Origin: Trichomonas vaginalis G3
Taxonomy: Eukaryota; Parabasalia; Trichomonadida; Trichomonadidae
Direction: 5' to 3'
Length of the DNA stretch: 64,000 nucleotides
Assembly (NCBI RefSeq): GCF_026262505.1
Contig: NC_067206.1
Location: forward strand, 9,110,268-9,174,267
Part shown: piece after piece, positions 14,604 through 37,093 of the stretch
Position numbering within the stretch: position 1 is the first letter of the stretch
How the letters are laid out: each line of letters begins with the position of its first letter
Translations under genes and position numbers: made by a program
Notes under the pieces: model-generated
Databases searched by the model: none
The model's input: the letters and a program-made list of their open reading frames with translations, nothing else
Told to the model about the DNA's origin: nothing

Positions 14604-15007
14604 ATGACAAGTAAATTCTCAATGAAAGTCTATTATCTGGCGATTTAAAATGCCAAACCATGACATAATGTTTTTACAGAGTCCAAATCATAGGCTGTTG
14701 ATCCATTTCCAAATTTCAAAGGAGAAAGGGACAGACTAGCCCATTGTCACTTTTCAATTTAGCAAATGAACGCTTATGGAGTGAGTTAGTATGGTTAAGT
14801 TGGGTACTGTGGCACTGCGCGCCTCCGTACACCACTTAACGGTTTTGACACTTTACGTAACCGGTAACGTATATTTTACAACACAAACGACAACACTAAC
14901 TTAACCTTAAATATTTACAAAGCCACCAACCACTTCACTAACGAACTCACTAATGTAAAAAATAAACGTTCTCACTATCGTTCTCACTAACGACTTCACT
15001 AATGTTC

Positions 15008-15292
15008 TCATAAATTTTCCTCAATATCTTCATCATCAGTGTTAACCCTATTGTAGTCATACTTGAAGCCATAAACTTTCTCTAACTTCTTAACGTACAA
15101 TTTACATAACTTACCTTCGTCATCGTATGGTTTAATGATATAACTATTTCTATCTTTATACACAGTCAATGAAAAGTCAACTGGTCTCGGATGTATTTGA
15201 AAGAACATGTTATGCTCAGGAAGGAAGAATAAATGTTTAAATGTATGTTTGTTATACTGTGGAATTCGAATGAGTTGCTTTTGTTCTGTCAT
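15008..15292 (-). CDS. TIR-encoded 94-aa protein, left copy
   Basis: Intact gene lying wholly inside the TIR. An identical protein is therefore encoded at 37094-37378 at the other end, both transcribed outward. The N-terminus has a basic and aromatic stretch (His-Thr-Phe-Lys-His-Leu-Phe-Phe), the middle reads like small beta strands, and the last 15 residues are acidic. No recognised family. A diverged homologue sits at the same place in copy C (55834-56160), so the position is under constraint. Being in the terminus, it could encode a terminal-protein-like or end-binding factor, but nothing in the sequence proves that. The TTTTTATTTGGATGTAA leader before the ATG matches other genes of this element. 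Confidence 0.75.
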   Translation of the reverse strand: MTEQKQLIRIPQYNKHTFKHLFFLPEHNMFFQIHPRPVDFSLTVYKDRNSYIIKPYDDEGKLCKLYVKKLEKVYGFKYDYNRVNTDDEDIEENL

Positions 15293-15387
15293 TTACATCC
15301 AAATAAAAATTTTCAGTAAAAAAAAAATAAACTTAAAAATTAATGATATCACCACCCTCACACGTATGAAAACATAGCGCAAAAATA

Positions 15388-15445
15388 AATTTAGGTGAAG
15401 TGGTGAGATTTCACCTCTTTTTTCACCTGTTTTTTCACCCACTTG
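15388..15445. promoter_or_regulatory. GGTGAGATTTCACC iteron, left TIR of copy B
   Basis: AGGTGAAG, then the near-palindrome GGTGAGATTTCACC, then two TTTTTTCACC repeats. It lies between the TIR ORF start and the stop codon of the next minus-strand gene. An identical inverted block is in the right TIR. Confidence 0.6.
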
Positions 15446-15448
15446 AAT

Positions 15449-15964
15449 TCATTGCTTTATAACTCTCTTCCTTGGTTTCTTTTTAGTTGCTTTCTTCACG
15501 TCTGTCTCCAACTTGACTGTCTTTCTTCTTCGTCCGTAATGATACCAATTACTTCCACCAGTCAATGGGTCAAATGGTCTTTCGTAAGGGTTTCCATACA
15601 TTCCATAGGGACCATACGGAAGAACTACTGGTGGAGGAAGAGTTCCATCGACTCTATTTAAATGCATTGTTTCACCTTTCATCTGGTCATTAAAGTCTTT
15701 TGCGTGTTTTGCAAACTCATCGTCCTTTCCTAAAGCATTTTCTGACTCAGTCGCAACCAAATTGGATGCTTTATTTATGAGTCCTATTTTATTTAATCTT
15801 AACTTCTTTGCAACCCAGCCTCCAATCTTTCCTTTATTTGCATCTAATGTCTTCGAAACTCTTCCTCCACTCATTTTATTTACTGCGTCATAAGCTCCAA
15901 GTGCTTTTGCTCCAAATGCTAATGCTTTTGTTCCCATTGCGCCTAAAGCTGCCCAAGCTACCAT
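15449..15964 (-). CDS. Basic Gly/Ala-rich virion protein candidate (171 aa)
   Basis: Begins with an Ala/Gly-rich, weakly amphipathic stretch (Val-Ala-Trp-Ala-Ala-Leu-Gly-Ala-Met-Gly, residues 2-11, and on to about 30). A charged helical middle follows, then a Pro/Gly/Tyr-rich segment (residues 110-140) and a strongly basic tail (Lys-Lys-Lys-Pro-Arg-Lys-Arg near 161-167). Amphipathic N-terminus plus basic C-terminus resembles the layout of adenovirus pVI-like or core-type minor virion proteins found in Polintons, but this is analogy only. The start overlaps the stop of the upstream 65-residue gene (TAAATG), implying coupled expression. Near-identical copies are at 56316-56831 and, broken, at 1207-1720. 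Confidence 0.78.
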   Translation of the reverse strand: MVAWAALGAMGTKALAFGAKALGAYDAVNKMSGGRVSKTLDANKGKIGGWVAKKLRLNKIGLINKASNLVATESENALGKDDEFAKHAKDFNDQMKGETMHLNRVDGTLPPPVVLPYGPYGMYGNPYERPFDPLTGGSNWYHYGRRRKTVKLETDVKKATKKKPRKRVIKQ

Positions 15965-16162
15965 TTACACCATATTAAAATCATCTCTCTTCAATATTAT
16001 CTCATAAAAGTTCTCGTTACTGGAGAAAGTCAATGAAACATAAACATTCTCATTCATAAACTTCTTTCTTATATCATCTATTCGCTTCAAAATGTCTGAA
16101 CAATTGCTAACATCTTCTACAACAGTTATTTCATCATGAATGACCTTCAAGAACAAGCTCAT
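15965..16162 (-). CDS. Small Polinton protein (65 aa)
   Basis: Intact 65-residue gene between the minor capsid candidate and the basic protein, on the same strand, with overlapping or abutting stop and start codons on both sides. It has a hydrophobic N-terminus (Met-Ser-Leu-Phe-Leu-Lys-Val-Ile), then an acidic and helical middle. Not recognised. In copy C the same gene carries a double-hairpin insertion and a frame change (56832-57052). Confidence 0.65.
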   Translation of the reverse strand: MSLFLKVIHDEITVVEDVSNCSDILKRIDDIRKKFMNENVYVSLTFSSNENFYEIILKRDDFNMV

Positions 16163-17044
16163 TTAATATGCTATTAAAATCATCTCAATAATGAGTCCAT
16201 CCTTTCCATCTTTAGGTAGCACAACATCTTTCATTGAAGAAGGTTCGACAAGTCTTATGTTAAACTTACTGACAAAGTTTGTTATACTATAATGCTTCGG
16301 TGGCGAATACATGTAGTTTGAAAGACATAATATAGATTCTTCAGCAAATTCACTTATACTGGATTTTATAACAATGTTCTCACGAGACCAAATACCACCA
16401 ATTGACAATCTTGTAAGCAATCCTGCTGAACCTTCAACTGTAAACGTCGATGGTAACATTCCACGAAGGTCATCTATTGACATCTTTGAGTCACTGAATT
16501 TAAATATTTTCTTAAAGCAATCGTCATTATCTAACCATGCAATAGCTTTGAAGTTTTCATTCGAATATACATCTGCTTCATTAAATGTAAAACCCGACTT
16601 CTTTGCAGAGATGACTTTAAAATCTATTGAGTTTGTTTCAAAATTATATGCTATGCTAACTTCTGAAGGTAATGGATGTCCTTCCGCAGTCAGTTGTTCT
16701 CTCACTACCGTTTGAAGCTTTGTGTTAAAAACTTTCATGTCATCTCCTGTGTCTAGGTTCACATACACAGCAACAGGAAAACTATCTTGCTTCTTTGTTT
16801 CATCATTATACCTCAAAACATTAAAGTTCTTCAATAATATTGTTCTTCCTGCTGGAATACTTCGAACCTGTCTGATTTCAATAGCTTTCTCACCTCCTAC
16901 ATACTCTACCCAGTGCCTTGGATATTCATAAGTATACTGACTTTCTTGAATTTTGGTAGGTTTCATCATAACGTGTTCATAGTATATCTTTATACTCTTG
17001 TCAGTTAGACTCGGTGCTATGTTCTGAATATTTCTGACTTGCAT
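16163..17044 (-). CDS. Penton-like minor capsid protein candidate (293 aa)
   Basis: Intact. I chose the ATG at 17044 (Met-Gln-Val-Arg-Asn), not the more upstream ATG at 17131, because the longer version would run antisense through the ATPase start. In copies A and C too, the 17044-type start gives a clean 16-bp divergent spacer. The protein has a Tyr-Glu-Tyr-Pro-Arg-His-Trp-Val motif near residue 45, shared in pattern (aromatic-x-Pro-x-x-Trp) with the proteins at 32933-33790 and 50397-51245. All three are 280-300 residues, beta-rich and near other virion genes. That suggests a family of jelly-roll minor capsid or penton-type proteins, as described for Polintons. Assignment rests on size, context and the shared motif. 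Confidence 0.7.
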   Translation of the reverse strand: MQVRNIQNIAPSLTDKSIKIYYEHVMMKPTKIQESQYTYEYPRHWVEYVGGEKAIEIRQVRSIPAGRTILLKNFNVLRYNDETKKQDSFPVAVYVNLDTGDDMKVFNTKLQTVVREQLTAEGHPLPSEVSIAYNFETNSIDFKVISAKKSGFTFNEADVYSNENFKAIAWLDNDDCFKKIFKFSDSKMSIDDLRGMLPSTFTVEGSAGLLTRLSIGGIWSRENIVIKSSISEFAEESILCLSNYMYSPPKHYSITNFVSKFNIRLVEPSSMKDVVLPKDGKDGLIIEMILIAY

Positions 17045-17060
17045 TTTTAATGGAGATAAA
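17045..17060. promoter_or_regulatory. 16-bp bidirectional promoter candidate
   Basis: Spacer TTTTTAATGGAGATAA between divergent ATGs of the minor capsid candidate and the ATPase, identical in copies A and C. A very similar spacer lies at 19979-19995. Confidence 0.55.
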
Positions 17061-17943
17061 ATGAAGCATTTAATACATGACGTAGATGAAGACATGAATG
17101 AAACTACAGACAAACTTAACTCTTCTCTCATTCTTCCTTTCAGTAAGGACTATGAGTTCTGTTCAAATGGCGTTTATTTCTATTGTGGAAAGATGGGTTC
17201 AGGTAAGACATTTAACCTCATTCGTCATATACTCATAACAGAACGTTTAGGAAATGACTCATATTATGACCAAATCATTATATCAGCAACTTCAGACTCT
17301 ATGGACTCAACAGCGAAAACATTTATGTCAAAAGTTCAAGCCTCTGTCGTTAAAGTTCCAGACAGTGAACTCATTGAATTTCTTCAACGTTACATTCGAC
17401 GTAAGAGGAAATATTATGCCATCGTTGAATTATACAGTCAGGAATGCAAAAGACTTTGAGGAGATGGAAAATTATTGACAAACACCACTTACGTCAGTAC
17501 TCAGGAGTTTACGATATGAAACGACTGACAAACTACATTCTATCAAAACTTTCAAAATACCCCTTCAAAAAATATCCTTCAAACACTCTGCTCGTTTGCG
17601 ACGACTTCGCTGGTAAAGGTTTAGTGTCAAAACCAGACTCACCATTAGCTAATATCATTACTAAGTCAGACATTACCACTTAACTGTAGCAATACTTATG
17701 CAAACATGGAGGTTTTTAGCTTTAAACATAAAACGTCTCATAACTGACTTCGTTATCTTTCAAGGTTTCTCACGTTATGATATTGAACTCATTTGGAAAC
17801 AGTCAGGTATAACATTACCTTTTGAAGAAATTTGGGAAGCATATAAGTCTCTCATCTCTCCTCGTTCATACCTTGAGATTCATATCATGACTAATACCAT
17901 TAAAGTCAAAAATATTCCATGGGAACGACCAACATTGTTTTAA
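17061..17943 (+). pseudogene. FtsK/HerA-type packaging ATPase, frameshifted
   Basis: Same gene as the intact 295-residue copy at 57951. Walker A is present. The frame is lost near 17430-17475 (missing bases around Val-Glu-Leu-Tyr and Met-Glu-Lys) and again near 17664 (AAAG reduced to AAG). Walker B (Leu-Leu-Val-Cys-Asp-Asp-Phe) is in the second open piece. Its stop codon overlaps the stop of the convergent gene at 17940. Confidence 0.88.
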
Positions 17944-18332
17944 AGTTTAACCTTCAATTGACTGATGGTAAACAAATTCCATGCATCTCTGTCGCCATTT
18001 CTGTTAATATTTTTGCTGTCATTCATATCATCCACTTCTCCATCCGTTAGCTTTTGAGGATATGCGTTAGAATAGCTGTTCTTAAATGAAGGCTTTTCAC
18101 CTTTGAGAGCATAAACTCTATAACTTTCTGCATACTTTATGTTTGAACCTCCTGAGCCATCATTGACATAAATTTTTATAGGCTTCCACCCTTTGTTCAT
18201 GTTCCTGCTTCTTCCCTTAGCTCTTTTGTTCAGTAGTTCTACATCTTTATACACAGCTCCTGTCTCAGTGAATTCAACAATATTTTCATTCGTTAGCTTT
18301 ACATTCAAACCCTTGTCGAGTATATTGTTCAT
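17940..18332 (-). CDS. Conserved Polinton protein of unknown function (130 aa)
   Basis: Intact counterpart of 3698-4099. A one-base loss before the start removes the Met-Tyr-Glu lead-in seen in copies A and C, so translation would begin three residues later. It has a basic central patch (Lys-Arg-Ala-Lys-Gly-Arg-Ser-Arg) and an Asn/Asp-rich C-terminus. It converges on the ATPase with overlapping stop codons and diverges from the gene at 18366 across about 33 bp. Confidence 0.68.
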   Translation of the reverse strand: MNNILDKGLNVKLTNENIVEFTETGAVYKDVELLNKRAKGRSRNMNKGWKPIKIYVNDGSGGSNIKYAESYRVYALKGEKPSFKNSYSNAYPQKLTDGEVDDMNDSKNINRNGDRDAWNLFTISQLKVKL

Positions 18333-18365
18333 TCATACATATAAAAGGTTTTTATTCTATATGAA

Positions 18366-18978
18366 ATGAGAAGCAAATCCATCTTAGCTGGTGCCGTTAA
18401 TGTTCCAATTGAACCAACATCAAATGTTGACTCACGAACGACAAACAATATTGTCATAAAGAACTATAGTTCAGAGTGTTTGAAAGAAAAAGAACCAGAA
18501 CTGAAATCCGTGAATTTAAACTCAGCTTCAAACGCTAACGCTACATCAGATGTTAAGTTAGAGTATCCACCACTGGACCAATTCTTTCAAGAGAAGCCAA
18601 CGACAACCCTTACACAAATGTTCAAACAAATCCTTCAGATAACGTAGACCATTACCTTCTTCAGTTATACCAAACAATTTTACTCAAAGACGATAAGAAG
18701 CTTTGACAAATCTTATAAGTAAGAACCAAATAATTTTAACAAAGGAGGACCTTGAAAATGTTATCTCACGAATAACAGGGAAACAATGTGTCATTGACTA
18801 TCTCGACCCTGAAATCGAATGCTGTGGTCAAACGCCACCATTCATGAAAATAGGTAACATCCGCATCATTGAAACACCAGGAACTACAGGAGTTGAGTTT
18901 AAGTATAAATATTCGAACGAGTATACAAAACTATCTACTTACTATAAGCTTTGTTTGAAATATGTTTTAGTAAATTAA
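18366..18978 (+). pseudogene. Conserved 204-aa Polinton protein, frameshifted
   Basis: Two open pieces (18366-18647 and 18703-18978) correspond to the N- and C-terminal parts of the intact gene at 59261-59875. Losses near 18580 and 18704 break it. The last four bases overlap the next, convergent gene. Confidence 0.75.
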
Positions 18979-19243
18979 AGCAATTTGTAATATCTATCCA
19001 AAACTTCTTCAACAGTATCGAACTCATCTTCATAATGCAAACCTAATCTTATTGACTTGGTGCAGTTTTCACTAACACAATATAGCGCTTTGCGCTCGGC
19101 GCCTTTGACGCCTTTTTCTGTTCTCTTGACTGACATAACTAACTCATTTGTTTCATCAAACAGCAAAACCAAAGTTCATGACCTAATACATAACATTCAT
19201 ACTTTATATTTTTAGCTCTGAGTTCTCTTGTAAGCTGTTGCAT
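18975..19243 (-). pseudogene. Small Polinton protein (89 aa in copy C), frameshifted
   Basis: Aligns with 59872-60141. A base loss near 19167 separates the N-terminal 25 codons from the rest. It contains the GC-rich hairpin pair (AGCGC-TTT-GCGCT and GGCG...CGCC) in the codons for Lys-Gly-Val-Lys-Gly-Ala-Glu-Arg-Lys-Ala-Leu, around 19083-19113. The N-terminus overlaps the preceding gene by about 40 bases. Confidence 0.68.
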
Positions 19244-19978
19244 TTAATATTTTCTAAAAAGTCAACTTCAACAGTCATTCGCACTGGTGCCTTCAGTTCT
19301 ACAGGCTCTCCTTGAAAGTCAACTAGTCTGAATTGCATGTCTTTCAAATTATGAGGACTAATGCGAACCCATTTACCTAAATGAGTTGCTATGACAGGAA
19401 CGTTTGGAATGAACATTGAATTTACTTCATAACAGAAGGATTTATATTCTACTGAACCTTTACTATTAACTCCTGAAATACCTGTGACATTAGCTATTTT
19501 TGACTCAATGTACAAACAATTGCCATAACATACGTATGGAACAGATTTCATCTCAATCGTTTTGTCAACACTTTTCAAAGGAAATGTCATATGGTATGCT
19601 CCAAAGAAGTTGAACTCTATGACTCATTCGTGTTATCTTAAACTCCTTTGCATAACTGAACTTCAAAACTCCTGCAATAAGTTTAACATTCATTAAGTTT
19701 TCTTCGTTATCCTTGTTTATTGTAGTATTTATGAGAGCATTTAACACTCCAGCTAATGTTTCCATCTTATATTCTACATTATTGTGAAATCTTATTTCGT
19801 GCTTCTTTCCATCTATTTCAAGCTCCATGAAATCTGTTTCATCTGTTATGACAAAAGTTGCGATAGTATTGAAGTCAACCATTCTGAATGCAAGCGCCTC
19901 ATTCTGTAGACCTAAGTTTGTTTGTAGTTTTACTGTCCCGTATTCGTTTGGGTCTGTACTTTGCAAATAGAACAACAT
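19204..19978 (-). pseudogene. Capsid-type protein starting MLFYLQS, frameshifted
   Basis: Two open pieces (19565-19978 and 19204-19590) together cover the ~258-residue protein. Base losses near 19600-19610 break it at the same region that is broken in copy C, though the exact changes differ. Divergent from the fibre gene with a 17-bp spacer. See 60102-60879 for family comments. Confidence 0.72.
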
Positions 19979-19995
19979 TTTATTCTCATTAAAAT
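19979..19995. promoter_or_regulatory. 17-bp bidirectional promoter candidate (capsid-type/fibre)
   Basis: TTTATTCTCATTAAAAT separates two divergent ATGs. The same spacer is present before the fibre genes of copies A and C, and it resembles the spacer before the ATPase (TTAAT followed by GAGA/GAGAATAAA on one strand). Confidence 0.55.
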
Positions 19996-22900
19996 ATGAG
20001 TATAGCTGCATATGCGTATGAAGCTGACAGAGCTAAACGTTTATATTTTGGTCAATACTCTCTCACACTTACTGACAAATATATTGTTATCAGTGATGGA
20101 AATACCGAGAAATACATAACATGGAAGGACTATGAAAAGTTTGACCCCATTTTAACTCCATGCACTATGCCATTCATTGTAAATGGTGAAGTTGTCATGA
20201 AGAACGACACAACAGTATATAAGTCTGTTCATGAAGCGTTAGAATATATGTTGAATTATAATCCCGAAAGATTTGACCCAAGCACTACGCCATGTACAAT
20301 GCCTTTTATTAAGGATGGTGAAATCGTAAGAGTTCCGGATTCAACGGTTTACACAGCTGTTCAAAACAGTTTACAAAACATTTTAGCGAATATCTTTAAT
20401 TCAGAAACTACAGAAATAAAATTACCATATATAACAGATGCTAAAGAAATTAAATCAAAAACGACAACATTATTTACGTCACTTAATGATTTAATGACTT
20501 ATATCATTAATATTCCTGCACCAACTACAGCATTTGATCCAAACTCGACGGTTTGCAGTGTACCTTTCATAAAGTCGCAAACGGACTCTTTGAGTCCTGA
20601 AGGTCTTTCAGACCGAAGCGACCAGGGCGAAGCCCATGACAGTTCAGTAATTGTTTTAAGGGATTCAACAGTTAATGAATCATTAAAGGCTTCATTAATG
20701 AAAATCATTGATTTTAACTCATTCATGAATACATATAATTCATTCATTAATGTTTCATATGCTTCTAAAGAAGGTGAGCCAAAAACTATCGATAAAGCGG
20801 TGTATGAAATAAAAGCATCAACGACGAAATTGAATTCGTTAACTTTTGACGGTGATAGTTTCGTTAATGACATAACATCGGGGAAAACAATTTTAACGAA
20901 AGAATATTTAAAATCTCATGTTAGTGAGTTCGTTGAAATTGAAAAAGAAGGTGGAATTAAGTTCGATCCACTGAATTTCATTTTCAGCTTAGCGAATGCG
21001 GGTGTTAGTTTCGCTGAATGGACAACTATACAGAGTGAAATAAATGCAATATGGACGTTTTTGGGGTCAAAAGCGGGAATGGGTGAGCTTGTAAATGCTG
21101 CAAGAACATTAGGTGAAACAGGAAATTTTGTAGATGGTTTTAAAAGACTTGTTTCAAATGTTTTAACAAACACAAAGAAATTATTTAGATATACCGTACA
21201 TAACGGACGGATTTTCGAACAGGTAGCAACAAACCCTCCGGTTATGGCTGCGTTGATGATGGTTAGAGATATAAAACCACGTAACGACGGGAACGAAGAA
21301 CATGAACAACAGAGCCCAACGGGCTCAGAGCCACATAGTGGCGAGGATACTGGTCGGGTTATTCAAGACATTAAAAACGTGTATCCTGAAGTTATTGATT
21401 TATTTAGAGGAGTTAATGATTCAATTTCAAAACATTCTATAACCCTCGATGAAGAGAATAAATTAACAGATTATATATTCGTCATTATTGCAGAATTAAT
21501 GAAGAGAATAAATGAAAAAGGAATTGGTGATATCATTAATGTCAGCGATGTAATGATGAAAAGAAATTTTGACTCATTATTTACAAAACCGAAAACAGAA
21601 TATAGTCTTTATGACGTAATTACCGAATTAATGAAAAAGATTAATGATAATAAGAGTTCTGGCGGAAGAGTTGAATTAGAAGTGAATGATGTTAATGAGA
21701 AATTAGCCGAAAAAGCAGATAAAAACCACGTTCATTATATAACTTCAGACGAACAGATTATAACGGACTACCATGGATATTTAACACGAAGTGATGAAGC
21801 GAAGACAAAAAATGTTAATGAAAGAAGATATAAATACATTCGTGCTAAAGGTTATGACATAAGCTGTACTGTACAGTATGATGTAGCTAAAGCACCAGAA
21901 GCATTTGGTTATACCGGTGAAATTTATGCCTCTACTTTCAATGTTAATGGTGTATTAGTTGAACCAAGATTTACTTTGAGAGTTAAGTCAAAAATAACGT
22001 TTGAAGATGCTATTAAAAGTAAAGCTGACAAAGATGAACTTGACGCAACGAACAAAGTTTTGAAATCTCATAAACACAACATCTCCGATATAAATGAACT
22101 TCAAACTTCTTTAGACAGTAAAGCTGACAAGAACCATACACATAAATCCTTCACTACTGTTAGAGCAGACGACATAATATTGAACTTTGACCTTGGTTCA
22201 AGTGCACCTTTAGAGAATCCAAGTACAAGCGTAAAAGATACACTAAACTCCTTAAATAACAAATGTATGAACATTGAAGGTCATGTCAGAAACTTTGAAA
22301 CACATGAACTACCAGCAATGTTAGATAAGAAAGCAGATAAGAACCATACACATGATTTCTTCACAACTGTTGCTATAGAAAGTATTGAAGGAACGGTTGA
22401 AGAAACTGGTGGGGATGCATTATATTGTAAACCTCCTAACTTTCCACAAGGTTTAACATCGGATGACGACATAACGACGATGAGAAACATTAGATGTAAA
22501 GATGTTTATGTCATGAAGGATGAACATAATATTAAATTCACTGCTCAAGATTTATATGACAAGAAAGCAGACAAGAACCATACACATAAATCCTTCACTA
22601 CTGTTAGAGCAGACGACATAATATTGAACTTTGACCTTGGTTCAAGTGCACCATTAGAAAATCCAAGTACAAGCGTAAAAGATACTCTTAACAATTTAGA
22701 TAAGAGTTGCAGGAATACCGAAGATCATGCCAGAAACTTTGAAGCACATGAACTACCAGCAATGTTAGATAAGAAAGCAGATAAAACTTATGTGGATGCA
22801 GAACTAACAAAGAAATTTTCGAAACCAGATACAATGACATTTACAACAGAAATTATAAATGGTGAACCAGCAACTCCATTTGAATTTGTTAGAGGTCTTC

Positions 22901-23505
22901 AACCAGATACTTTTGAATTTTTCTTGGATAATTCTATTGAACTAACATTACATTATAAAAGTGGAACAAATGCAACATTTCATCCGGGAGATACATTCCA
23001 AATGGTATTTAATGACATAAGTTCTTTAGAATATGTTTATAGAGTTATGAGCATATATGATTTAATATATCCTATAGGAGCTGTTTATACGTCTATGAAT
23101 CCAATAAATCCAAACACTTTATTTGGTGGTAGATGGTATGAAATAGTTGACAGTTTTCCATTCTACACTAATACGCAGTCAATGAAGATGGGAGGTTCAA
23201 AGAAAATAGGTATTGAAAACCTTCCTTCACATATGCATAGGTTCAGTGGAAGAACATCTGTGGAAGGAAACCATTCACATTCAATAACAAAAAGAGGTTA
23301 TATAAATCTTGCAGCGGGTTCGAATAGACAGGGAATGAACAGATATGATATCTCAGATGACCCCAAAGATGTTAGCACAGGTATTTTCTGTGGAACTGCA
23401 GGAAATCATACACATGTTGTAGCTGGTATTACAGACCCAGCAGGTAATGGAAAAGATTATATGCCTCCTTATATAACAATGCACGCTTGGATACGAGTTG
23501 GTTAA
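19996..23505 (+). CDS. Giant modular fibre protein with phage tail-collar-like C-terminus (1169 aa)
   Basis: Intact. The N-terminal Met-Ser-Ile-Ala-Ala-Tyr-Ala-Tyr-Glu matches copies A and C and may anchor the fibre to the virion. Residues ~45-240 hold three to four repeats of a ~55-residue unit (Phe-Asp-Pro...Thr-Met-Pro-Phe-Ile...Ser-Thr-Val-Tyr); copies A and C have one. After an alpha-helical region come cassettes separated by Lys-Ala-Asp-Lys-Asn-His-x-His linkers (near residues 574, 710, 784 and 864). The last ~170 residues run from Tyr-Pro-Ile-Gly-Ala-Val-Tyr through Phe-Gly-Gly-Arg-Trp, Leu-Pro-Ser-His-Met-His and His-Thr-His to Met-Pro-Pro-Tyr-Ile-Thr. This pattern is familiar from phage tail-fibre/collar and some giant-virus proteins. 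A receptor-binding spike is the likely role. Double-hairpin elements lie at 20583-20635 and 21312-21342. Confidence 0.85.
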   Translation: MSIAAYAYEADRAKRLYFGQYSLTLTDKYIVISDGNTEKYITWKDYEKFDPILTPCTMPFIVNGEVVMKNDTTVYKSVHEALEYMLNYNPERFDPSTTPCTMPFIKDGEIVRVPDSTVYTAVQNSLQNILANIFNSETTEIKLPYITDAKEIKSKTTTLFTSLNDLMTYIINIPAPTTAFDPNSTVCSVPFIKSQTDSLSPEGLSDRSDQGEAHDSSVIVLRDSTVNESLKASLMKIIDFNSFMNTYNSFINVSYASKEGEPKTIDKAVYEIKASTTKLNSLTFDGDSFVNDITSGKTILTKEYLKSHVSEFVEIEKEGGIKFDPLNFIFSLANAGVSFAEWTTIQSEINAIWTFLGSKAGMGELVNAARTLGETGNFVDGFKRLVSNVLTNTKKLFRYTVHNGRIFEQVATNPPVMAALMMVRDIKPRNDGNEEHEQQSPTGSEPHSGEDTGRVIQDIKNVYPEVIDLFRGVNDSISKHSITLDEENKLTDYIFVIIAELMKRINEKGIGDIINVSDVMMKRNFDSLFTKPKTEYSLYDVITELMKKINDNKSSGGRVELEVNDVNEKLAEKADKNHVHYITSDEQIITDYHGYLTRSDEAKTKNVNERRYKYIRAKGYDISCTVQYDVAKAPEAFGYTGEIYASTFNVNGVLVEPRFTLRVKSKITFEDAIKSKADKDELDATNKVLKSHKHNISDINELQTSLDSKADKNHTHKSFTTVRADDIILNFDLGSSAPLENPSTSVKDTLNSLNNKCMNIEGHVRNFETHELPAMLDKKADKNHTHDFFTTVAIESIEGTVEETGGDALYCKPPNFPQGLTSDDDITTMRNIRCKDVYVMKDEHNIKFTAQDLYDKKADKNHTHKSFTTVRADDIILNFDLGSSAPLENPSTSVKDTLNNLDKSCRNTEDHARNFEAHELPAMLDKKADKTYVDAELTKKFSKPDTMTFTTEIINGEPATPFEFVRGLQPDTFEFFLDNSIELTLHYKSGTNATFHPGDTFQMVFNDISSLEYVYRVMSIYDLIYPIGAVYTSMNPINPNTLFGGRWYEIVDSFPFYTNTQSMKMGGSKKIGIENLPSHMHRFSGRTSVEGNHSHSITKRGYINLAAGSNRQGMNRYDISDDPKDVSTGIFCGTAGNHTHVVAGITDPAGNGKDYMPPYITMHAWIRVG

Positions 23506-23524
23506 AATCTTTAACTTTACATAA

Positions 23525-24610
23525 ATGAGCTTGAAAGAAGTATTCGAACAACATCCATGGAGGTCATTTAAGAAGTTCAATGAAGCTGCAAAGAGTTCGG
23601 GATTTACTAACAGAGCTGAAGTGAAAAGGTTCTTTGACAAAAATGTTGTACATCAAACAAAAATAAACCCTTACGACTACTTTTTACCAATTTACTCCAA
23701 CACTCCTGACGCATACCAATTTGACACTCTCATTCAAAGCAGAAAAGGAGGACATAAACCATTCCTCATCTTCATAAATGTTAACACTCGTAAAGCATAT
23801 GCATATCCAATGAGAAATAAAGGAACTCGTGAAGTGTTAAGAGTTTTACAAAAGTTTGTAGCAGAACATAACCCAAGTACTTTAACATCAGACCAAGACA
23901 GTGCATACCTCAGCAACGAAATCACAGAATTTCTCATTAAGCATAACATAACTCACTACACTACTGAAGACCATAACCATAACATACTCGGCATCATAAA
24001 CCGCTTCATAAGGACTCTCAGAGATTTAAACCAAGAGCGAGACTTTACCGAAGAAACAATGAAACATTTCATCGAAGTTTACAATTCCTCAACACATTCT
24101 ACAACAGGACATACACCAAATTCAATGACACAACAACAAGAAGAAAAGTATATACAAAAGAAACGAAGCCAAACACAAAATATCAGAAATTCAACACAAT
24201 TTACCCTCATTCCTGGTACAAAAGTTCGTGTAGTTCTTGACGACAAACCGTTGACAAAGAAACGTTTAAGGTTAAGTCGAAATTATTATATTGTAGACTC
24301 TACGCAAGGTAATGGATATCTTATAAAAGCTGCCGACGACTCTATTGCGTTTTATCCTCGACATAAATTAGTCGAAAGTAGTAATGGCAAACTTGCTGAA
24401 ACCATTGACGAAGCAAAGCGAGGAGTGGTTATTGAAATACTTGGCTATAACACAAACGATGACACTTATAAAGTAAGATATGAAGGAGGCGTTGAAGATG
24501 TTATACCATCTAAGAACTTGAGAGAGTCGAAGCCAACACATCTGGGACCATTAGAGCGGGAGTACTGGAAAGACAAAAATATGCCAGAAAGAATAAGAAA
24601 ATTCTTCTAA
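23525..24610 (+). CDS. Polinton retroviral-like integrase (rve fold), copy B
   Basis: Intact 361-residue integrase, 19 bp downstream of the fibre gene on the same strand. The catalytic core has Asp67 (Gln-Phe-Asp-Thr-Leu), Asp123 (Thr-Ser-Asp-Gln-Asp-Ser) and, exactly 35 residues further, Asn159 in Gly-Ile-Ile-Asn-Arg-Phe, where retroviral-type integrases have the catalytic Glu. The C-terminal part (residues ~225-350) has small beta-barrel-like segments, the last resembling a chromodomain or Tudor-like fold (Tyr-Lys-Val-Arg-Tyr-Glu-Gly-Gly). It would cut and join the element termini in the nucleus. No N-terminal zinc finger is evident. If Asn159 cannot replace Glu, this copy is inactive despite the open frame. 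Confidence 0.92.
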   Translation: MSLKEVFEQHPWRSFKKFNEAAKSSGFTNRAEVKRFFDKNVVHQTKINPYDYFLPIYSNTPDAYQFDTLIQSRKGGHKPFLIFINVNTRKAYAYPMRNKGTREVLRVLQKFVAEHNPSTLTSDQDSAYLSNEITEFLIKHNITHYTTEDHNHNILGIINRFIRTLRDLNQERDFTEETMKHFIEVYNSSTHSTTGHTPNSMTQQQEEKYIQKKRSQTQNIRNSTQFTLIPGTKVRVVLDDKPLTKKRLRLSRNYYIVDSTQGNGYLIKAADDSIAFYPRHKLVESSNGKLAETIDEAKRGVVIEILGYNTNDDTYKVRYEGGVEDVIPSKNLRESKPTHLGPLEREYWKDKNMPERIRKFF

Positions 24611-24635
24611 ACTTTTTCATTAGATGTAAATCAGA

Positions 24636-25160
24636 CAAAAATATAATTTAGGTGAAGAGGTGAGATTTCACCTGTTTTCTCACCTGTTTTTTCACCTCTT
24701 GAATTTGTCATAACTTCTTCGTAAATGCTTTGTCATAACTTCATCGTAAATGCTTTGTCATAACTTCTTCGTAAATGCTTTGTCATAACTTCATCGTAAA
24801 TGCTTTGTCAAGATTTCATCGTAAATGCTTTGTCATGACTTCTTCGTAAATGAGTGTAAATGACCTAAAATATAATTTAGGTGAAGAGGTGAGATTTCAC
24901 CTGTTTTCTCACCTGTTTTTTCACCTCTTGAATTTGTCATAACTTCTTCGTAAATGCTTTGTCATAACTTCATCGTAAATGCTTTGTCATAACTTCTTCG
25001 TAAATGCTTTGTCATAACTTCATCGTAAATGCTTTGTCAAGATTTCATCGTAAATGCTTTGTCATGACTTCTTCGTAAATGAGTGTAAATGACCAAAAAT
25101 ATATTATAGGTGAAGAGGTGAGATCTCACCTGTTTTCTCACCTCTTTTTTCACCTCTTGA
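24636..25160. repeat. 229-bp macro-repeat: GGTGA iteron plus 25-bp tandem units
   Basis: Iteron blocks begin at 24651, 24880 and 25109, a spacing of 229 bp. The first two are each followed by six 25-bp units of the form GTCATAACTTCWTCGTAAATG plus CTTT, alternating CTTC and CATC variants, then TGAGTGTAAATGACC. No protein-like frame. The array fills the gap between integrase and the next gene, so it may be a replication origin, centromere-like or transcription-control region. Confidence 0.92.
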
Positions 25161-25235
25161 ATTTTCATGAATTTTCCCGAAATAAAAAATAAAGTTAGTT
25201 TTATTTTTTTTATTTTTTTATTTTGTATAAAAGAT

Positions 25236-26201
25236 ATGATTTCAACAATCGGCACAACAACAATTCAAGCCGCGAACGGCGGGACTCTGTCCACAACAAC
25301 AGCACCAAACTCGTTAGTCATGAATCCTACGTCAATGTTAGTAGAGATGAAAAACTTCATTCCTTCTTCATATACTTTCGAAACAAAAATCCAGAAGATA
25401 AAGCAAGAACTTTTAACAAGTAATTTAGACTGTAGTGCGAAAGATGAAGAAAATGAAGAATATCTTTATGAAATGCAGGACATTATTGACCATTTACCCA
25501 AATTGCCTGAAATCCAACAACAAAAACTCACTATTCCTGAATTCGACGAAATTGAAGTGAAACCAACTGACTCAGTAGAAATAAAGAAGTTCATACGTAA
25601 AGTAAATTATGAATTCCTTGGTTTTCATTGCAACCATAAGGTTATGGACAAAGATTGCGACATGGTATATAAAAACATTTCTGACATATATAAATCTGAG
25701 GAGTTTAAGACTTACGATAACTTTGTTTCATTAGTTGCAAAATGTGTTTGGGAAATAAGAGATAAAGATAGAAGAGGCAAAGTATGGAACGAACAAATAA
25801 GACCCGCTATGTTTGAGATGAAGAGAGCAATTGACGCCTTAGTTGTTTTAGCTGGTTTTATTTCAATGTATAACGCAAAAATGAACCCGCAATGTTCAAA
25901 ATGTAAGGCAGCAATTAGGAAATATAACTACTCAGTCAAAGAGATAGAAAGAATGAGAAACGACTATGCAGACTTAAAGAAAGAAGCAGAAAAGCCAGCA
26001 GAAGATAAAATGAACATGTTAGAATTTCTGAACAAAAACTATCCAACAGCAGAAGATTTCCTTCTATCTGACGTCAAGAAGAAGTATAAAGAAACCTTCG
26101 GTATTGTTAAAACTTTTGACATACTGACAGAAGAAATAGAAGCTACGAAATTGTTTAGGATTTCAAATATACATCGTACAATTCATGTAAAACGCTTGTG
26201 A
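25236..26201 (+). CDS. Polinton protein of unknown function (321 aa)
   Basis: Start chosen at the ATG following the T-rich leader and TAAAAGAT; the upstream in-frame ATG at 25167 would translate the T-run. The N-terminus is Thr/Ala/Asn-rich and carries a double hairpin at 25269-25292. Residues ~65-310 are charged and largely helical, with a Cys/His set (Cys-Asn-His-Lys-x6-Cys near 132-142 and Cys-Ser-Lys-Cys near 225) that could bind metal. A Tyr/Lys-rich coiled-coil-like part follows. No family recognised. It is followed within 10 bases by an inverted GGTGA iteron. Not the adenovirus-type protease: I see no His/Asp/Cys arrangement of that kind. Confidence 0.7.
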   Translation: MISTIGTTTIQAANGGTLSTTTAPNSLVMNPTSMLVEMKNFIPSSYTFETKIQKIKQELLTSNLDCSAKDEENEEYLYEMQDIIDHLPKLPEIQQQKLTIPEFDEIEVKPTDSVEIKKFIRKVNYEFLGFHCNHKVMDKDCDMVYKNISDIYKSEEFKTYDNFVSLVAKCVWEIRDKDRRGKVWNEQIRPAMFEMKRAIDALVVLAGFISMYNAKMNPQCSKCKAAIRKYNYSVKEIERMRNDYADLKKEAEKPAEDKMNMLEFLNKNYPTAEDFLLSDVKKKYKETFGIVKTFDILTEEIEATKLFRISNIHRTIHVKRL

Positions 26202-26208
26202 AAAAACT

Positions 26209-26268
26209 GGGGTGAAAAAAGAGGTGAAAAAACAGGTGAGATCTCACCTCTTCACCTAAATTATATTT
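26209..26268. promoter_or_regulatory. GGTGAGATCTCACC iteron, inverted, after the 321-aa gene
   Basis: GGGGTGAAAAAAGAGGTGAA, then the palindrome GGTGAGATCTCACC, then TCTTCACCTAAATT. It starts 8 bp after the stop codon and would fold into a strong hairpin in the transcript, so transcription termination or 3'-end formation is a reasonable guess. Confidence 0.6.
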
Positions 26269-26367
26269 TTGTTCAAAGCTTCCACGAGAGAAAAGATTCC
26301 TCATTCGCTAAGGATTCCAAAAATGAAAAAATCATTGATTTCGGCTGAGAAAAAACAGCAAAACCCT

Positions 26368-26432
26368 TCTTCCACGGGAACAAAGAAATAAAGAAGAAAT
26401 AAAGTAAATTTTTTATTTATTCCCGTGGAAGA
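26368..26432. repeat. 13-bp perfect inverted repeat
   Basis: TCTTCCACGGGAA at 26368-26380 and its reverse complement at 26420-26432, with a 39-base A/T-rich loop. It lies between the 321-aa gene and the tRNA-like sequence. It could be the ends of a tiny insertion or a transcript hairpin. Confidence 0.8.
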
Positions 26433-26497
26433 TAGAGCACTTTTATGACACTTTTTATTCACGACAAACAAGACAAACAAAGAAAATAAGAAAATAC

Positions 26498-26570
26498 GGC
26501 GCTGTCGCGGTTCGAACCACAGACTCTGACCCCTCCATAACACCACCTTAGACCACTGTGCTACGTAGCC
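26498..26570 (-). other. tRNA-like sequence with Pol III A and B boxes
   Basis: A 73-base minus-strand segment beginning GGCTACGTAGC. It has an A-box match TAGCACAGTGG at positions 8-18 and GGTTCGAACC (B-box-like) at 53-62, spaced as in a real tRNA. The acceptor ends pair at GGC/GCC only, the T stem is interrupted and no normal anticodon stem forms. It is either a decayed tRNA gene or a tRNA-derived Pol III element carried inside the Polinton. Confidence 0.4.
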
Positions 26571-26611
26571 TGTCGACATAAGATTTTATAAATTGCATAT
26601 TTGACGTAAAT

Positions 26612-26986
26612 TTATTTCCATCTAGCTTCCCACCGCATAAGATATTCATACGTGTTTGTAAGACATTCATTAAACTTCTTTTCTATTGCATCTAATCTTG
26701 CGTTATTTTTTTCAATAGCTTGTCTGTATTCTTCATCATCTCCAGCAGTGTTTGGGTCTTCACGTTTAAAATATTCATTGTTAACCAATTTTTTATCTAC
26801 AAATTTTATTAGTGTTTGATTCACTTCGTTATGATAACGGTCATATTCTTTCAATACGTAAGTGAAGACAAAATGCGTCGTACCTTCAATCTTAAAGCTT
26901 AAAGAACTTTCAACACAGTTTTGAGGGTCTGTCAGTGCGTCAATGAGATAGTATTCGAAGTCAGTCAATAATCTTTTTAAAGTCAT
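26612..26986 (-). CDS. Polinton protein of unknown function (124 aa)
   Basis: Intact small gene, divergent from the KilA-N gene. It is mostly helical and charged: Leu/Tyr-rich N-terminus, then Lys/Asp/Glu-rich segments, with a coiled-coil-like stretch near residues 80-110 (Ile-Glu-Lys-Asn-Asn-Ala-Arg-Leu-Asp-Ala-Ile-Glu-Lys). It ends in aromatic and basic residues (Arg-Trp-Glu-Ala-Arg-Trp-Lys). I do not recognise it. The 108-bp gap to 27095 holds a T-rich tract shared with other promoters in the element. Confidence 0.65.
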   Translation of the reverse strand: MTLKRLLTDFEYYLIDALTDPQNCVESSLSFKIEGTTHFVFTYVLKEYDRYHNEVNQTLIKFVDKKLVNNEYFKREDPNTAGDDEEYRQAIEKNNARLDAIEKKFNECLTNTYEYLMRWEARWK

Positions 26987-27094
26987 TTCATACAGGATAA
27001 AATTTAATGTTGTGAAGAAATAGTGTTTATCTCAGAAAAAAATAACGCTAATTTTATTTTTATTTATTTTTTTATTTTGTATGTAAAGACAGAT

Positions 27095-27922
27095 ATGTCA
27101 ACATTAGAGAACACAACAACAGTTATAGTCCATGAAGCCATAAATGAAGAATACGAATACATACAGTATAACAAACAATTGAGACTCATTCGTTCTGTCA
27201 AAGATGATATGTATCAAATGCAAAGTATAATGAACGCTCTTCGTTCTACAAAGCAAGCATATCATTGGTTTGAAAACCAACAGGCAAAAGAACTTTTAGA
27301 AGAATTTCCTCATATGATTGCTTCCCTCGGAAAACCGAGGGAAGAGATTCCGTACGAAAATCGCAAGAATTTGGCACCTGGTTTGAAAGGTTATTATGTT
27401 CATAGACTTTTAGTAAATGCTGTAGCAATGTGGGCTTCACCTCGTTATGCTTGTTATATTTTCATGATGTTAGATGAACTATATAAAGCAGAACGCGAAC
27501 AGATGGAAAAGAAACTTCAAGCAAAAGATGAAGTCATTGAATCCAAAGACAAAAGCATACAGAAAAGAATACCACGTTCAGTACCAAAAGGAAAGGAAAA
27601 GAGTTATAAGTATATGATTTACGCTGAAGAGATGGAAAATGAAGAAGACAGAGATATGGTTATGTTGCATTTAGTCAGAAGAAACAACAAAAGCTTTTAT
27701 GACCTTGCTAAGATTTACAAATCTGACAGAAACTGGTTCTATCGTGAAAACTTACCGATTTCAATGACACCGAATGAGCAAATAAAGGAAATTGTCAAAA
27801 ATACTCTTCCTCAAACACACTATGACATCAAAGGTTGCACAATACTTACATTCAAAGAAGACTTACCATTGTTAAAGGAAAAAATAACAGAGTATTTCGA
27901 TAACTTCAAAGAGGAAGAATGA
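27095..27922 (+). CDS. KilA-N-domain DNA-binding protein (275 aa)
   Basis: The start is the Met-Ser-Thr-Leu-Glu ATG after the T-tract; the earlier in-frame ATG at 27023 would translate the tract. Residues ~55-132 match a KilA-N domain: a Trp-Phe-Glu helix, a Leu-Leu segment, then Gly-Leu-Lys-Gly-Tyr-Tyr-Val-His-Arg-Leu-Leu-Val-Asn, and Ala-x-Trp-Ala-Ser-Pro-Arg-Tyr-Ala near 112-119. A coiled-coil follows (131-165). The C-terminal region resembles the DUF3627/MSV199-like tails often joined to KilA-N in large DNA viruses. Likely a sequence-specific DNA-binding regulator of the element. A 9-bp perfect hairpin (27322-27343) sits in the codons for Ser-Leu-Gly-Lys-Pro-Arg-Glu-Glu. Confidence 0.85.
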   Translation: MSTLENTTTVIVHEAINEEYEYIQYNKQLRLIRSVKDDMYQMQSIMNALRSTKQAYHWFENQQAKELLEEFPHMIASLGKPREEIPYENRKNLAPGLKGYYVHRLLVNAVAMWASPRYACYIFMMLDELYKAEREQMEKKLQAKDEVIESKDKSIQKRIPRSVPKGKEKSYKYMIYAEEMENEEDRDMVMLHLVRRNNKSFYDLAKIYKSDRNWFYRENLPISMTPNEQIKEIVKNTLPQTHYDIKGCTILTFKEDLPLLKEKITEYFDNFKEEE

Positions 27923-27973
27923 AGTCACGACAACATTAACGAAGAAGTCACGACAACATTAACGAAGAGAGAA

Positions 27974-28022
27974 TGAGGTGAAAAAACAGGTGAAATCTCA
28001 CCTCTTCACCAAAAATATATTT
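27974..28022. promoter_or_regulatory. GGTGA iteron between convergent genes
   Basis: GAGGTGAAAAAACAGGTGAA, then ATCTCACCTCTTCACC. It lies between the stop codons of the KilA-N gene (+) and the gene at 28027 (-), a position that suits a terminator serving one or both. Preceded by two copies of a 26-bp ACGACAACATTAACGAAGA-type repeat (27927-27970). Confidence 0.6.
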
Positions 28023-28026
28023 TTGG

Positions 28027-28500
28027 TTAAATAGCTTCAGGGTCAATTTCTTCAACCATTTCACTTCCTTCGTCAATGTCAATAGAAGCTTCTTCAACCT
28101 TTGGTAAGAACTTTTGTATAACATCTTTGTTCGTTATTGTCTTCAGAGATGAAGGATAATATTTCACATTTATTTCACCCTTCTTATATTCTTTCTGTTC
28201 GGAAAGATTTAAAGCAATACTGAAGAAGTCAATGTTGGAGTTCTTTATAACAGTATAATGAGTATCTTTGACATTCACGAAGAAACCCTTTTGTTTCAAA
28301 ACTACTGCTAACTCTTGTGAAGTATAACGTTTGCGGTCAATGACAATAGCTAATGGTCTGACATACTGACCGAACTTAGATTCTTTCACAAACTTCTTGT
28401 TAAAGATAACATTGACGTTTGAAGCACCATTGAACTCATTCTTGATGGCAGTAGCGAGAGCATTGTATGAAAAGAACTTGCAATCTTGCATGTGTTTCAT
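28027..28500 (-). CDS. Polinton protein of unknown function (157 aa)
   Basis: Intact. Short hydrophobic and aromatic N-terminus, a central region rich in Val/Ile/Lys that reads as alternating beta strands (residues 40-110), and an acidic C-terminal tail (Asp-Ile-Asp-Glu-Gly-Ser-Glu-Met-Val-Glu-Glu, 141-151). No motif recognised. It diverges from the 28589 gene across about 88 bp of T-rich DNA. A single-stranded-DNA-binding or accessory replication protein would fit its acidic tail and place next to the polymerase block, but that is speculation. Confidence 0.65.
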   Translation of the reverse strand: MKHMQDCKFFSYNALATAIKNEFNGASNVNVIFNKKFVKESKFGQYVRPLAIVIDRKRYTSQELAVVLKQKGFFVNVKDTHYTVIKNSNIDFFSIALNLSEQKEYKKGEINVKYYPSSLKTITNKDVIQKFLPKVEEASIDIDEGSEMVEEIDPEAI

Positions 28501-28588
28501 TAAAATAAAAATATTAAATTATTTTGAAAAATAACTTAAAAAAATGTAATCTAATTTTTCAAAAAATATTTTTTATCCGATAGAAAAG

Positions 28589-28975
28589 ATGACAGAAAAA
28601 TTAACTTTTTACATAGCGCCAGACCCTTCTTGCCCACATCCTTTTAAGCCACAATATATAGACATAGAACTAAATAGAGAAAGCGAAATTCCACAATATA
28701 TATACATAGAACTAAATAGTGAAGGCGAAATTCTACAAACAGAAGAAAGCGAAATTCCACAAACATATAGAGAGATAACGAGAATAGATAACGAAAATGG
28801 ATATGCGCTATTCTGGTTAGATTGTCCTTATAAAATGTATGAAAAAAAGGCTTTATATGAAGAATATAGAAAATATTGTCATGAAAACGATATAAGACCA
28901 AGCTCTAGAGAAAAATTCTATGCTGGTATAAAACATCTTTTCGAAGTTCGGAATGGCAAATATATAAAGAAATAA
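28589..28975 (+). CDS. Protein with D5/P4-primase-like winged-helix C-terminus (128 aa)
   Basis: The N-terminal half contains two to three imperfect repeats (Pro-Gln-Tyr-Ile-x-Ile-Glu-Leu-Asn-x-Glu-x-Glu-Ile). The C-terminal ~50 residues (Leu-Tyr-Glu-Glu-Tyr-Arg-Lys-Tyr-Cys, then Ser-Ser-Arg-Glu-Lys-Phe, then Ile-Lys-His-Leu-Phe) resemble the small winged-helix domain at the end of D5-type or P4-type primase-helicases. In those proteins a helix with a Tyr-x-x-Tyr-Cys motif is followed by a basic recognition helix. No helicase domain is present, so it may be a free-standing DNA-binding module. It precedes the polymerase by about 50 bp. Confidence 0.6.
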   Translation: MTEKLTFYIAPDPSCPHPFKPQYIDIELNRESEIPQYIYIELNSEGEILQTEESEIPQTYREITRIDNENGYALFWLDCPYKMYEKKALYEEYRKYCHENDIRPSSREKFYAGIKHLFEVRNGKYIKK

Positions 28976-29026
28976 TTTTTCTAAGTTTATTTTTTCGAAA
29001 AAATATTTTTTTATTTCCTACTAAAG

Positions 29027-32000: not shown

Positions 32001-32872
32001 AGAGATGAAGTAAAGAAGTTGTTTGAGTTAAGGTTAAAGTATAAGAAAGAAGGAAACCCTTACAAGAAATTATAAAACTCATTCTGAACAGCATTTATGG
32101 CAAAACTATTCTATCTCCTATTGAGTCAAAAATAACCATAGTAAATGACAAAGATGCTATAAGATATGCTATAAGAAATTACAACCATATAGTGAAGTTC
32201 GAAGGTTTGGATGGTTCAGATAAAACTATTTTCAAGCTAACGAAAAGCATTTGCAGACACTTTAACTTCTGTCCACTTGGTGTTAATATTCTGTCTATGT
32301 CAAAACGTATTATGAATGAAGTATTCTGTACTGCAGAGGACATGGGACTTCAAATCTTTTACCAGGATACCGACAGTATGCACTTATATAATGAAGACAT
32401 CCCAAAGCTTGCAGCAGAGTTTAAGAAGAGATATGGTCGCGAACTTATAGGAAAGAACCTTGGTCAATTTCATAGCGACTTTGCAGAAATAACACCTGGA
32501 AAACAAAGTTTAGCTTATAAAAGTATTTTCTGTGGAAAGAAGACCTACATAGACTTACTCACTAACGATTTAAATGAAGTTGCATTTCACTGCAGAATGA
32601 AAGGCGTGAAGCAAGATGTTATTGCTTTAACCGCTAATGAAATGTTTCCTGAAGCTATACAATGCTATTACAATGAAGATAAGAACATTCACATACCTGT
32701 TGGAACATATGACAAAGACTCTGAGTTCAGTTTAATGAAACTTTACAAAGCACTTCATGATGGTCAAGAGATTGCATTCGACTTATGTAAGTCATGTCAA
32801 CCTTGCTTTGCTGAAAAGTTCAACTTTTCAATAACGACTAAAACAAGCTTTATTCGTAAGTTGAAGTTCTGA
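29027..32872 (+). pseudogene. Protein-primed DNA polymerase B (pPolB), multiply frameshifted
   Basis: About 1280 codons in at least five open pieces. The N-terminal ~590 codons precede the exonuclease. Exonuclease motifs are visible: Phe-Ala-Asp-Phe-Glu-Cys (near 30815), His-Asn-Leu-Ser-Tyr-Asp (near 30970) and Tyr-Cys-Lys-Gln-Asp-Val (near 31350). Polymerase motifs: Asp-Phe-Asp-Thr-Val-Ser-Leu-Tyr-Pro-Ser (near 31615), Leu-Asn-Ser-Ile-Tyr-Gly-Lys-Thr (near 32080) and Asp-Thr-Asp-Ser (near 32370). Frame breaks lie near 30840, 30900, 31405, 31850 and 32075. It would replicate the element from a protein primer at the termini. A double hairpin lies at 29194-29219 and a 100-bp internal direct repeat at ~29290-29400 (Glu-Met-Phe-Asp-Ile-Thr-Asn-Ala-Asn-Val-Gly, twice). 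Confidence 0.93.
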
Positions 32873-32932
32873 GGTCATTTATTTTTGTCAGCAATGAGGT
32901 CATTCGTGATAAAAATAAAGCTAGCGTAGATT

Positions 32933-33790: not shown

Positions 33791-33814
33791 TTAGTTCGGA
33801 TAAAAATAAACCAT

Positions 33815-34075: not shown

Positions 34076-34120
34076 TTGACTGTAGATAAAAAACTAAATT
34101 AAAACTTTAACCGATGTAAA

Positions 34121-34555: not shown

Positions 34556-34581
34556 ATAGATATTTTTTCTGAAGTAAATAC

Positions 34582-36154: not shown

Positions 36155-36184
36155 AGGATGAACGTTTATTTTTAAAGCTTATAA

Positions 36185-36643: not shown

Positions 36644-36690
36644 AAAATAACGTTATTTTTATTTAATATTAAAATTTTTATTTGATTGAA

Positions 36691-36927: not shown

Positions 36928-36937
36928 AGCAATGAAT

Positions 36938-36995: not shown

Positions 36996-37093
36996 TTATT
37001 TTTGCGCTATGTTTTCATACGTGTGAGGGTGGTGATATCATTAATTTTTAAGTTTATTTTTTATTTTTACTGAAAATTTTTATTTGGATGTAA

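Follow-up and report, generated by a model that had tools for sequence, protein, structure and literature searches.

How can two fibre genes that have diverged strongly elsewhere carry one cassette that is almost the same in both? The question is posed by a 64,000-nucleotide stretch of the Trichomonas vaginalis G3 genome (contig NC_067206.1, positions 9,110,268 to 9,174,267; hereafter the window), in which the fibre genes of elements B and D have in common a cassette that we call X (Table 1). An original prediction, made from the sequence alone, held that 22363-22575 and 51999-52210 differ at about two bases, and self-BLAST found 2 of 212 bases mismatched. Both mismatches are amino-acid-changing codon changes (GCA/GTA, A/V; AGA/AAA, R/K), and comparison of D against B lists a single further codon that differs, AAG/AAA, which sits in the right-hand linker. 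Strong divergence outside the cassette had also been claimed. This is in agreement with the Gp10_C ends of B and D, which have 47% amino-acid identity across 132 codons and a pS of 0.68, with synonymous sites saturated; between B and C the pS of these ends is 0.04. Only three D-region ORFs of at least 80 codons had protein matches in other parts of the window at E 1e-5, namely the fibre, 52673-53257 (25% identity) and 54634-55317 (36% identity). When synonymous divergence was compared inside and outside the cassette, as had been proposed, the two were far from equal: between the X of B and the 22 D copies whose X is intact, synonymous differences were confined to linker codons 66, 67 and 69, and the cassette body had none. 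Because the body of X shows no synonymous change while the Gp10_C ends are saturated, the sharing of X is far younger than the split of the surrounding genes. Cassettes have been exchanged between fibre genes. We think it very probable that these are modular Maverick/Polinton fibres, similar to phage tails in their build, whose cassettes are shuffled between families by homologous recombination, mostly at short linkers.

Elements A, B and C are 97-98% alike across 5-7 kb by self-BLAST of the window. Element B can be assigned to the Mavericks/Polintons by its 99.6% identical inverted ends, its rve integrase (PF00665) and its match to a family B DNA polymerase (PF03175), and, as expected of such elements, it is bounded by terminal inverted repeats and has a length within the range of about 15-25 kb. 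The polymerase, putatively of the protein-primed type, is split over two ORF pieces, and for this reason the copy looks partly decayed. Element B also encodes a KilA-N domain protein at 27023-27919. The D element has an rve integrase core that is 36% identical to the integrase of B; its termini were not found, and no family B polymerase was matched among the D-region ORFs given to Pfam.

The fibres of B, C and D all have PTR (PF12789) and Gp10_C (PF21939) domains above the Pfam cut-offs, and PHROG tail protein families are matched by the fibre proteins. The module order confirms that C lacks X and that B has it between two RADDII (R) cassettes, R1 and R2, which are 90% identical across 231 bp. 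KADK/HTH linkers were expected on both sides of X, and this holds for B; in D, the left linker is KANKNHTH and the right one runs from KADK into TELQ without HTH. The N halves of the fibres (nB and nB2) are unrelated even though the elements are about 97% identical, as seen for B 19996-21711 against A 6341-7720 and C 60897-62632. Several public records of fibre proteins, including P0128, P0131, P0132 and P0134, are labelled 'organellar and viral DNA polymerase type B' or 'keratin-associated protein', and the Pfam domains of these records are PTR and Gp10_C, in some cases with collagen repeats.

Table 1. Elements, fibre genes and fibre modules in the window (positions count from its first nucleotide)
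Feature	Position	Strand	Remarks
Element A	starts 533		self-BLAST
Element B	14784..37602	+	22.8 kb between inverted termini
Inverted termini of element B	14784-15473 and 36911-37602		~690 bp, 99.6% identical; self-BLAST
Fibre gene of element B	19996..23505	+	1169 aa; nB N module, H, R, X, R, Gp10_C end (cB)
KADKNHVH linker in B	21712..21735	+	B/C identity resumes at first base
KADKNHTH linker before R1 in B	22120..22143	+	
First R (RADDII) cassette of B, R1	22144..22329	+	module order
KADKNHTH linker at the left edge of X in B	22330..22353	+	B/C identity stops at 22344
Cassette X of fibre B	22363..22574	+	TTVAIESIEG...DLYDKKADK; 71 codons
KADKNHTH linker at the right edge of X in B	22564..22587	+	B/C identity resumes at 22558
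Second R cassette of B, R2	22588..22785, end approximate	+	
Gp10_C domain of B	23053..23505	+	residues 1020-1168 and stop; Pfam
rve integrase (PF00665) of element B	23525-24607		above Pfam cut-off
DNA_pol_B_2 (PF03175) in element B	30902-31405 and 31405-31848		two ORF pieces; Pfam
Fibre gene of element D	51264..52673	+	469 aa; nD N module, PTR and other spacers, X, Gp10_C end (cD)
KANKNHTH linker at the left edge of X in D	51966..51989	+	
Cassette X of fibre D	51999..52210	+	
KKADKTELQ linker at the right edge of X in D	52197..52223	+	
Gp10_C domain of D	52239..52664	+	residues 326-467; Pfam
rve integrase core (PF00665) of D element	about 54631..55083	-	above Pfam cut-off
Element C	from about 55.7 kb to window end		self-BLAST
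Fibre gene of element C	61406..63982	+	858 aa; nB2-H-R-cB, without X

X had been noticed as a match between B and D. The sharing is real, but it is not peculiar to these two genes. Across the 180.85 Mb of the T. vaginalis G3 genome that were searched, the X core occurs 921 times with at most 3 mismatches in 48 bases, the end of X is joined to the TELQ stalk 904 times and to NHTH at 153 places with at most 3 mismatches (49 exact, on several contigs), and the end of R is joined to the TELQ stalk 377 times, the reversed-pattern control giving 0 in each case. The TELQ stalk is found before some E-type tips too. The 213-bp query gave 1337 first-look candidates, and each of the 40 matches that were scored is 100% identical over 212-213 bases. 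According to the surroundings read for 31 of these 40 (L001-L008, L046, L048, L050 and L069-L088), identical 212-bp copies of X lie in at least three fibre contexts: nB-H-R-X-R-cB in the eight loci L001-L008, which include the window's own copy; D-type genes in L046, L048, L050 and most of L069-L088; and genes with E-type parts, either the tip (L072, L085) or the N module ahead of X (L078, L084). One set of 20 loci had been picked for 100% identity to X and is therefore uninformative on the diversity of X. When 175 public proteins were typed by short motifs, by which many of them are not fully typable, nD-X-cD was found in 89; other arrangements were nD-R-cD, nD-Y-cD, nD-X-cE, H-R-X-cE, H-R-X-R with cB and with cE, H-R-R, H-R-R-R and H-H-R. 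The exchange is thus much wider than one event between B and D.

Repeats of this kind are difficult to assemble, and a chimera or a collapsed repeat might have put D sequence into B. However, the identical copies of X in several fibre contexts rule out a chimera specific to the window. The R-X-R order was read in all eight loci mentioned above, public proteins P0121, P0123, P0124, P0125 and P0136 have H-R-X-R, and the junction of X with NHTH recurs on several contigs. The copy numbers of the cores, the X-NHTH junctions and the exact matches led us to reject an assembly artifact, to which we assign next to no probability; the original prediction had itself named it as one of the observations that would undo the claim.

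Cassette exchange also leaves different cassettes at one site in otherwise similar genes. We read 30 D-backbone loci, chosen by their likeness to 51264-51984 and blind to X, and found X in 27 (cut short in L059 and L065), R in L056, Y in L064 and a PTR spacer in L068. The C-ends of the latter three are 95-98% like D, and L064 also has other sequence in place of the first 67 bases of the D C-end. The cassette of L056, the sole R read in a D-type gene, is typical of A/B/C fibres, with 3 differences from E-type R and 4 from B-type R. Of 20 loci picked for near-100% B-type C-ends, one has R-X'-R (L098), one has R-R (L096) and 18 have R or its remains; X was not seen in any of these 18, of which L093 has other DNA upstream. 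B-type genes therefore occur with the cassette orders R, R-R, R-X-R or R-X'-R. L098 is almost identical to B in the flanks on both sides, and its X' differs from X at 14 codons, all of them amino-acid changing. The same cassette in different backbones without synonymous divergence in its body, and different cassettes at one site in near-identical genes (L056, L064 and L068 against D, L098 against B), are what recombining cassettes should display.

The wide occurrence of X in the D family could also be taken to mean that both genes inherited X unchanged under extreme purifying selection, with no exchange at all. X tolerates change, however: 14-21 of its codons are changed in X' and X'', and 9 of its 65 sites exceed 1 bit among 108 proteins. 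Moreover, the synonymous sites would need to have been frozen too, and B-type genes with near-identical C-ends mostly lack X. Shared ancestry without exchange is contradicted by the synonymous sites, of which none differs in the body of X against saturation at the C-end, and we consider it extremely improbable. As a separate observation, a large distinct cassette, Z (YFTPPFLNFMKSS...), replaces X or R in fibres with E-type N modules (L009-L011, L014-L017, L030, L032 and others), and in L032 it is joined to a D-type tip.

The boundaries of the exchanged pieces were mapped between B and C and between B and two D-type loci. B and C agree up to the start of the fibre, have unrelated N halves and agree again from the first base of the KADKNHVH linker, exactly where they switch. 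Their identity then ends within the linker on the left of X and resumes just ahead of the linker on its right. The BLAST match between B and D (22320-22578) runs somewhat past X and across the left linker, then stops. With B, the D-type locus L087 shares 248 bp (22327-22574) with 1 isolated mismatch and L071 shares 255 bp (22320-22574) with 2 isolated mismatches, linker to linker in both cases, and both loci have the left linker in common with B. Most other D copies differ from B in the 9-base leader that follows HTH (variants TSF, DFF and KSF), so their shared block starts at 22363. The boundaries mapped between B and C and between B and L087 or L071 are all in linkers or within 10 bp of one. 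There is a single exception: R in L056 and Y in L064 have a common FTADDI left edge, that is, shared ADDI codons, so that these two loci switch inside the cassette and not in the linker. Among the mapped boundaries, junction ends appear to follow short shared stretches, mostly linkers.

Recurrence of junctions at nearly identical linker codons would also be expected if the cassette itself were mobile, by means of a dedicated site-specific recombinase, a homing system or a diversity-generating system acting at the linkers. Against this stand the ragged ends, with their variable 9-base leader, the junction at other shared codons, and the R-R, H-H-R and R-R-R arrays, which fit unequal crossing over. 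Diversity-generating retroelements make adenine-specific changes. In contrast, the changes between X and X' span more than one base type, and X as a target of adenine-directed hypermutation by such an element was rejected because the 14 codon changes are of mixed base types. A mobile cassette is in our view very unlikely.

We favour homologous recombination between fibre genes and propose the following scheme. The fibre starts with an N-terminal anchor, continues as a series of cassettes (H, R, X, X', X'', Y, Z and PTR spacers) that linkers connect, and finishes with a Gp10_C tip. Cassettes pass between element families, in our scheme by crossover or gene conversion. For the most part the recombination would end in the KADKNHxH/KKADK linker codons, which are conserved and about 24-35 bp long, and sometimes in other short shared stretches; since it ends there, a cassette could be replaced, inserted or duplicated in frame. 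The partners would be co-resident copies, recombined by host repair or by template switching during replication of the element. The fibres would be displayed on particles, where the cassettes and the tip loop may touch the host surface, and recombinants may have been kept by selection for new binding.

If cassettes are exchanged, X should be poorly linked to the rest of the gene. For the linkage analysis, 72 of 120 listed homologues (893 were found) could be parsed; in the remaining 48, the nD N-module, X or the C-end could not be parsed. Among the 72 proteins, the two halves of X gave a Mantel correlation of 0.58, whereas X compared with each of the two C parts gave 0.08 and 0.05; for N and X the value was 0.29. 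The contrast between X and C is weakened by the C-end itself: the halves within the two C parts correlate weakly (r of -0.05 and 0.25) and there is hardly any variation in the first C part (mean distance 0.024), so that the low X-C figures come partly from little variation or mixing inside C. With sites coded as commonest or other, mean r2 was 0.359 within N, 0.295 within X, 0.157 within C, 0.168 for N-X and 0.049 for X-C, and all four combinations were present in 377 of 378 X-C site pairs, compared with 117 of 153 X-X pairs and 192 of 210 pairs within C. Exchange is not free, since the X-C linkage still exceeds the permuted null of 0.014 (p 0.002) and the N-X linkage is moderate. The pattern fits frequent recombination short of full equilibrium. 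The nearly lost linkage between cassette and C-terminus joins the unchanged synonymous sites in the body of X, the alternative cassettes between similar flanks and the boundaries at or beside linkers in supporting the recent module swapping that had been predicted.

Diversity along the genes bears on what the exchange is for. Synonymous diversity in D-type DNA is patchy, with 0.005 in the body of X, 0.050 in the C part and 0.033 in the N part, a value lowered by the way in which the loci were chosen; 51474-51767 of D is likewise low, so X is not the sole piece of low diversity. At the protein level, site entropy was calculated from 108 of the 120 listed homologues, and sites above 1 bit number 14 of 48 in the Gp10_C loop, 9 of 65 in X and 16 of 130 in the N part, compared with 0 of 52 in the Gp10_C core and 1 of 21 in the stalk. 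The pN/pS, from which L056, L064, L068, L059 and L065 of the 30 D loci were omitted, was 0.80 for X, 0.68 for the C-end and 0.30 for the first N segment, although the bootstrap interval of the contrast between X and N includes zero. X' differs from X by 14 nonsynonymous and 0 synonymous changes, with a chance of about 0.05 at about 81% nonsynonymous sites. Positive selection on X may be suggested by these figures, and only suggested.

A serious, though not our preferred, possibility is that host gene conversion among thousands of repeats homogenizes them neutrally and makes mosaics, the cassettes being stalk spacers and their shuffling a by-product. This disputes the role of the exchange and not the exchange itself. 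It would account for the patchwork of synonymous diversity beyond X, for the junction at shared ADDI codons and for the many fibre copies broken by stops or frameshifts, and the N part is nearly as variable as X (mean entropy 0.33 compared with 0.40). Gene conversion has also been reported in another T. vaginalis family (PMC2914791). However, variation peaks in the Gp10_C loop (0.56) and X, while the Gp10_C core (0.10) and the stalk (0.12) are nearly invariant, and the higher pN/pS of X than of the first N segment points the same way, infirm as that contrast is.

Returning to modular fibres with shuffled cassettes, the likeliest role of the fibre appears to be attachment, as judged by the pattern of variability, the tail-fibre matches and the fibres described in PMC12220804. 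X and the tip loop may bind receptors and take part in host choice, as the Pfam and PHROG matches and the variability suggest. The fibres resemble T4 gp10 in the Pfam Gp10_C domain of B, C and D and in a match of the fibre-family profile to T4 gp10 chains in the PDB (best E 2.1e-08); the match is partial, spanning about 32-68 profile positions only, and no PDB chain was matched when the D protein was searched by itself. Among phages, 309 records of the collection searched match D, all below 60% identity and none over more than 80% of the query, and the 20 listed cover at most 50%. No recent phage donor was thus found in that collection. As reported in PMC11705849, His-x-His motifs in the fibre tip of T4 gp37 bind iron. 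Repeated His-x-His motifs are likewise present here, and by analogy the NHTH linkers might be metal-held joints, in a trimer. Tail proteins like gp37 are also reported for virophage DSLV2 (PMC12724248).

It has been described that cryptophyte Polinton-like viruses have phage-like fibres, with a presumed role in attachment, in which domains are combined in many ways, PTR (PF12789) and collagen repeats among them (PMC12220804). There, it is viral lineages and domain types that differ, and a C-terminal endosialidase chaperone is often present, whereas the fibres of T. vaginalis end in Gp10_C and, within a single genome, cassettes that are nearly identical pass from one element family to another. 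The main text of that paper has the word Trichomonas once, about Maverick abundance. Recent sharing of fragments between otherwise unrelated proteins is likewise reported for phage receptor-binding proteins (PMC10684548). That work concerns bacterial viruses, whereas here the elements are integrated in a eukaryote and have a great many resident partner copies. The Mavericks of T. vaginalis, the same kind of element in the same species, make up about a third of the genome and include 4,841 capsid genes according to PMC10120064, in the main text of which the words fiber and fibre occur 0 times. Modular fibres of Polinton-like viruses (PMC12220804) and the shuffling of phage fibre fragments (PMC10684548) are therefore already known from these sources. 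What looks new is how recent and how common cassette exchange is within one eukaryotic genome. In full-text searches of open-licence PMC papers, none of the titles and abstracts listed dealt with fibre-cassette exchange in T. vaginalis Mavericks, which is no proof of absence.

We also consider, as a doubtful but possible extension, that the resident Mavericks form a combinatorial archive of attachment cassettes, from which particle-making elements would draw new combinations of cassette and tip by recombination at linker codons. This would be like the tailed phages, and its outcome would be rather like the silent-cassette archives of antigenic variation. If it is true, the shuffling would be the sign of an extracellular life cycle, ongoing or very recent, in elements that are known mainly as genomic repeats. 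The exchange of cassettes bears on whether the Mavericks behave as transposons or as live viruses. Recent in-frame swaps of cassettes between families, together with variation that peaks in the tip loop and in the cassette, are what a particle facing varied cell surfaces would need and are hard to explain for a pure transposon. In addition, the hundreds of cassette copies in a single genome are a countable data set that may provide a measure of short-homology recombination in a eukaryote.

The window contains other repeats outside the fibre genes. Directly downstream of the D fibre, 53319-54532 consists of about 5 units of about 249 bp that are 98-99% alike by self-BLAST. A perfect inverted repeat of 268 bp is formed by 46441-46708 and 47335-47602, about 0.6 kb apart, and a near-palindrome of 301 bp (94% by self-BLAST) lies at 48406-48706. 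Degenerate units of about 132 bp, both direct and inverted, occupy 12246-13723.
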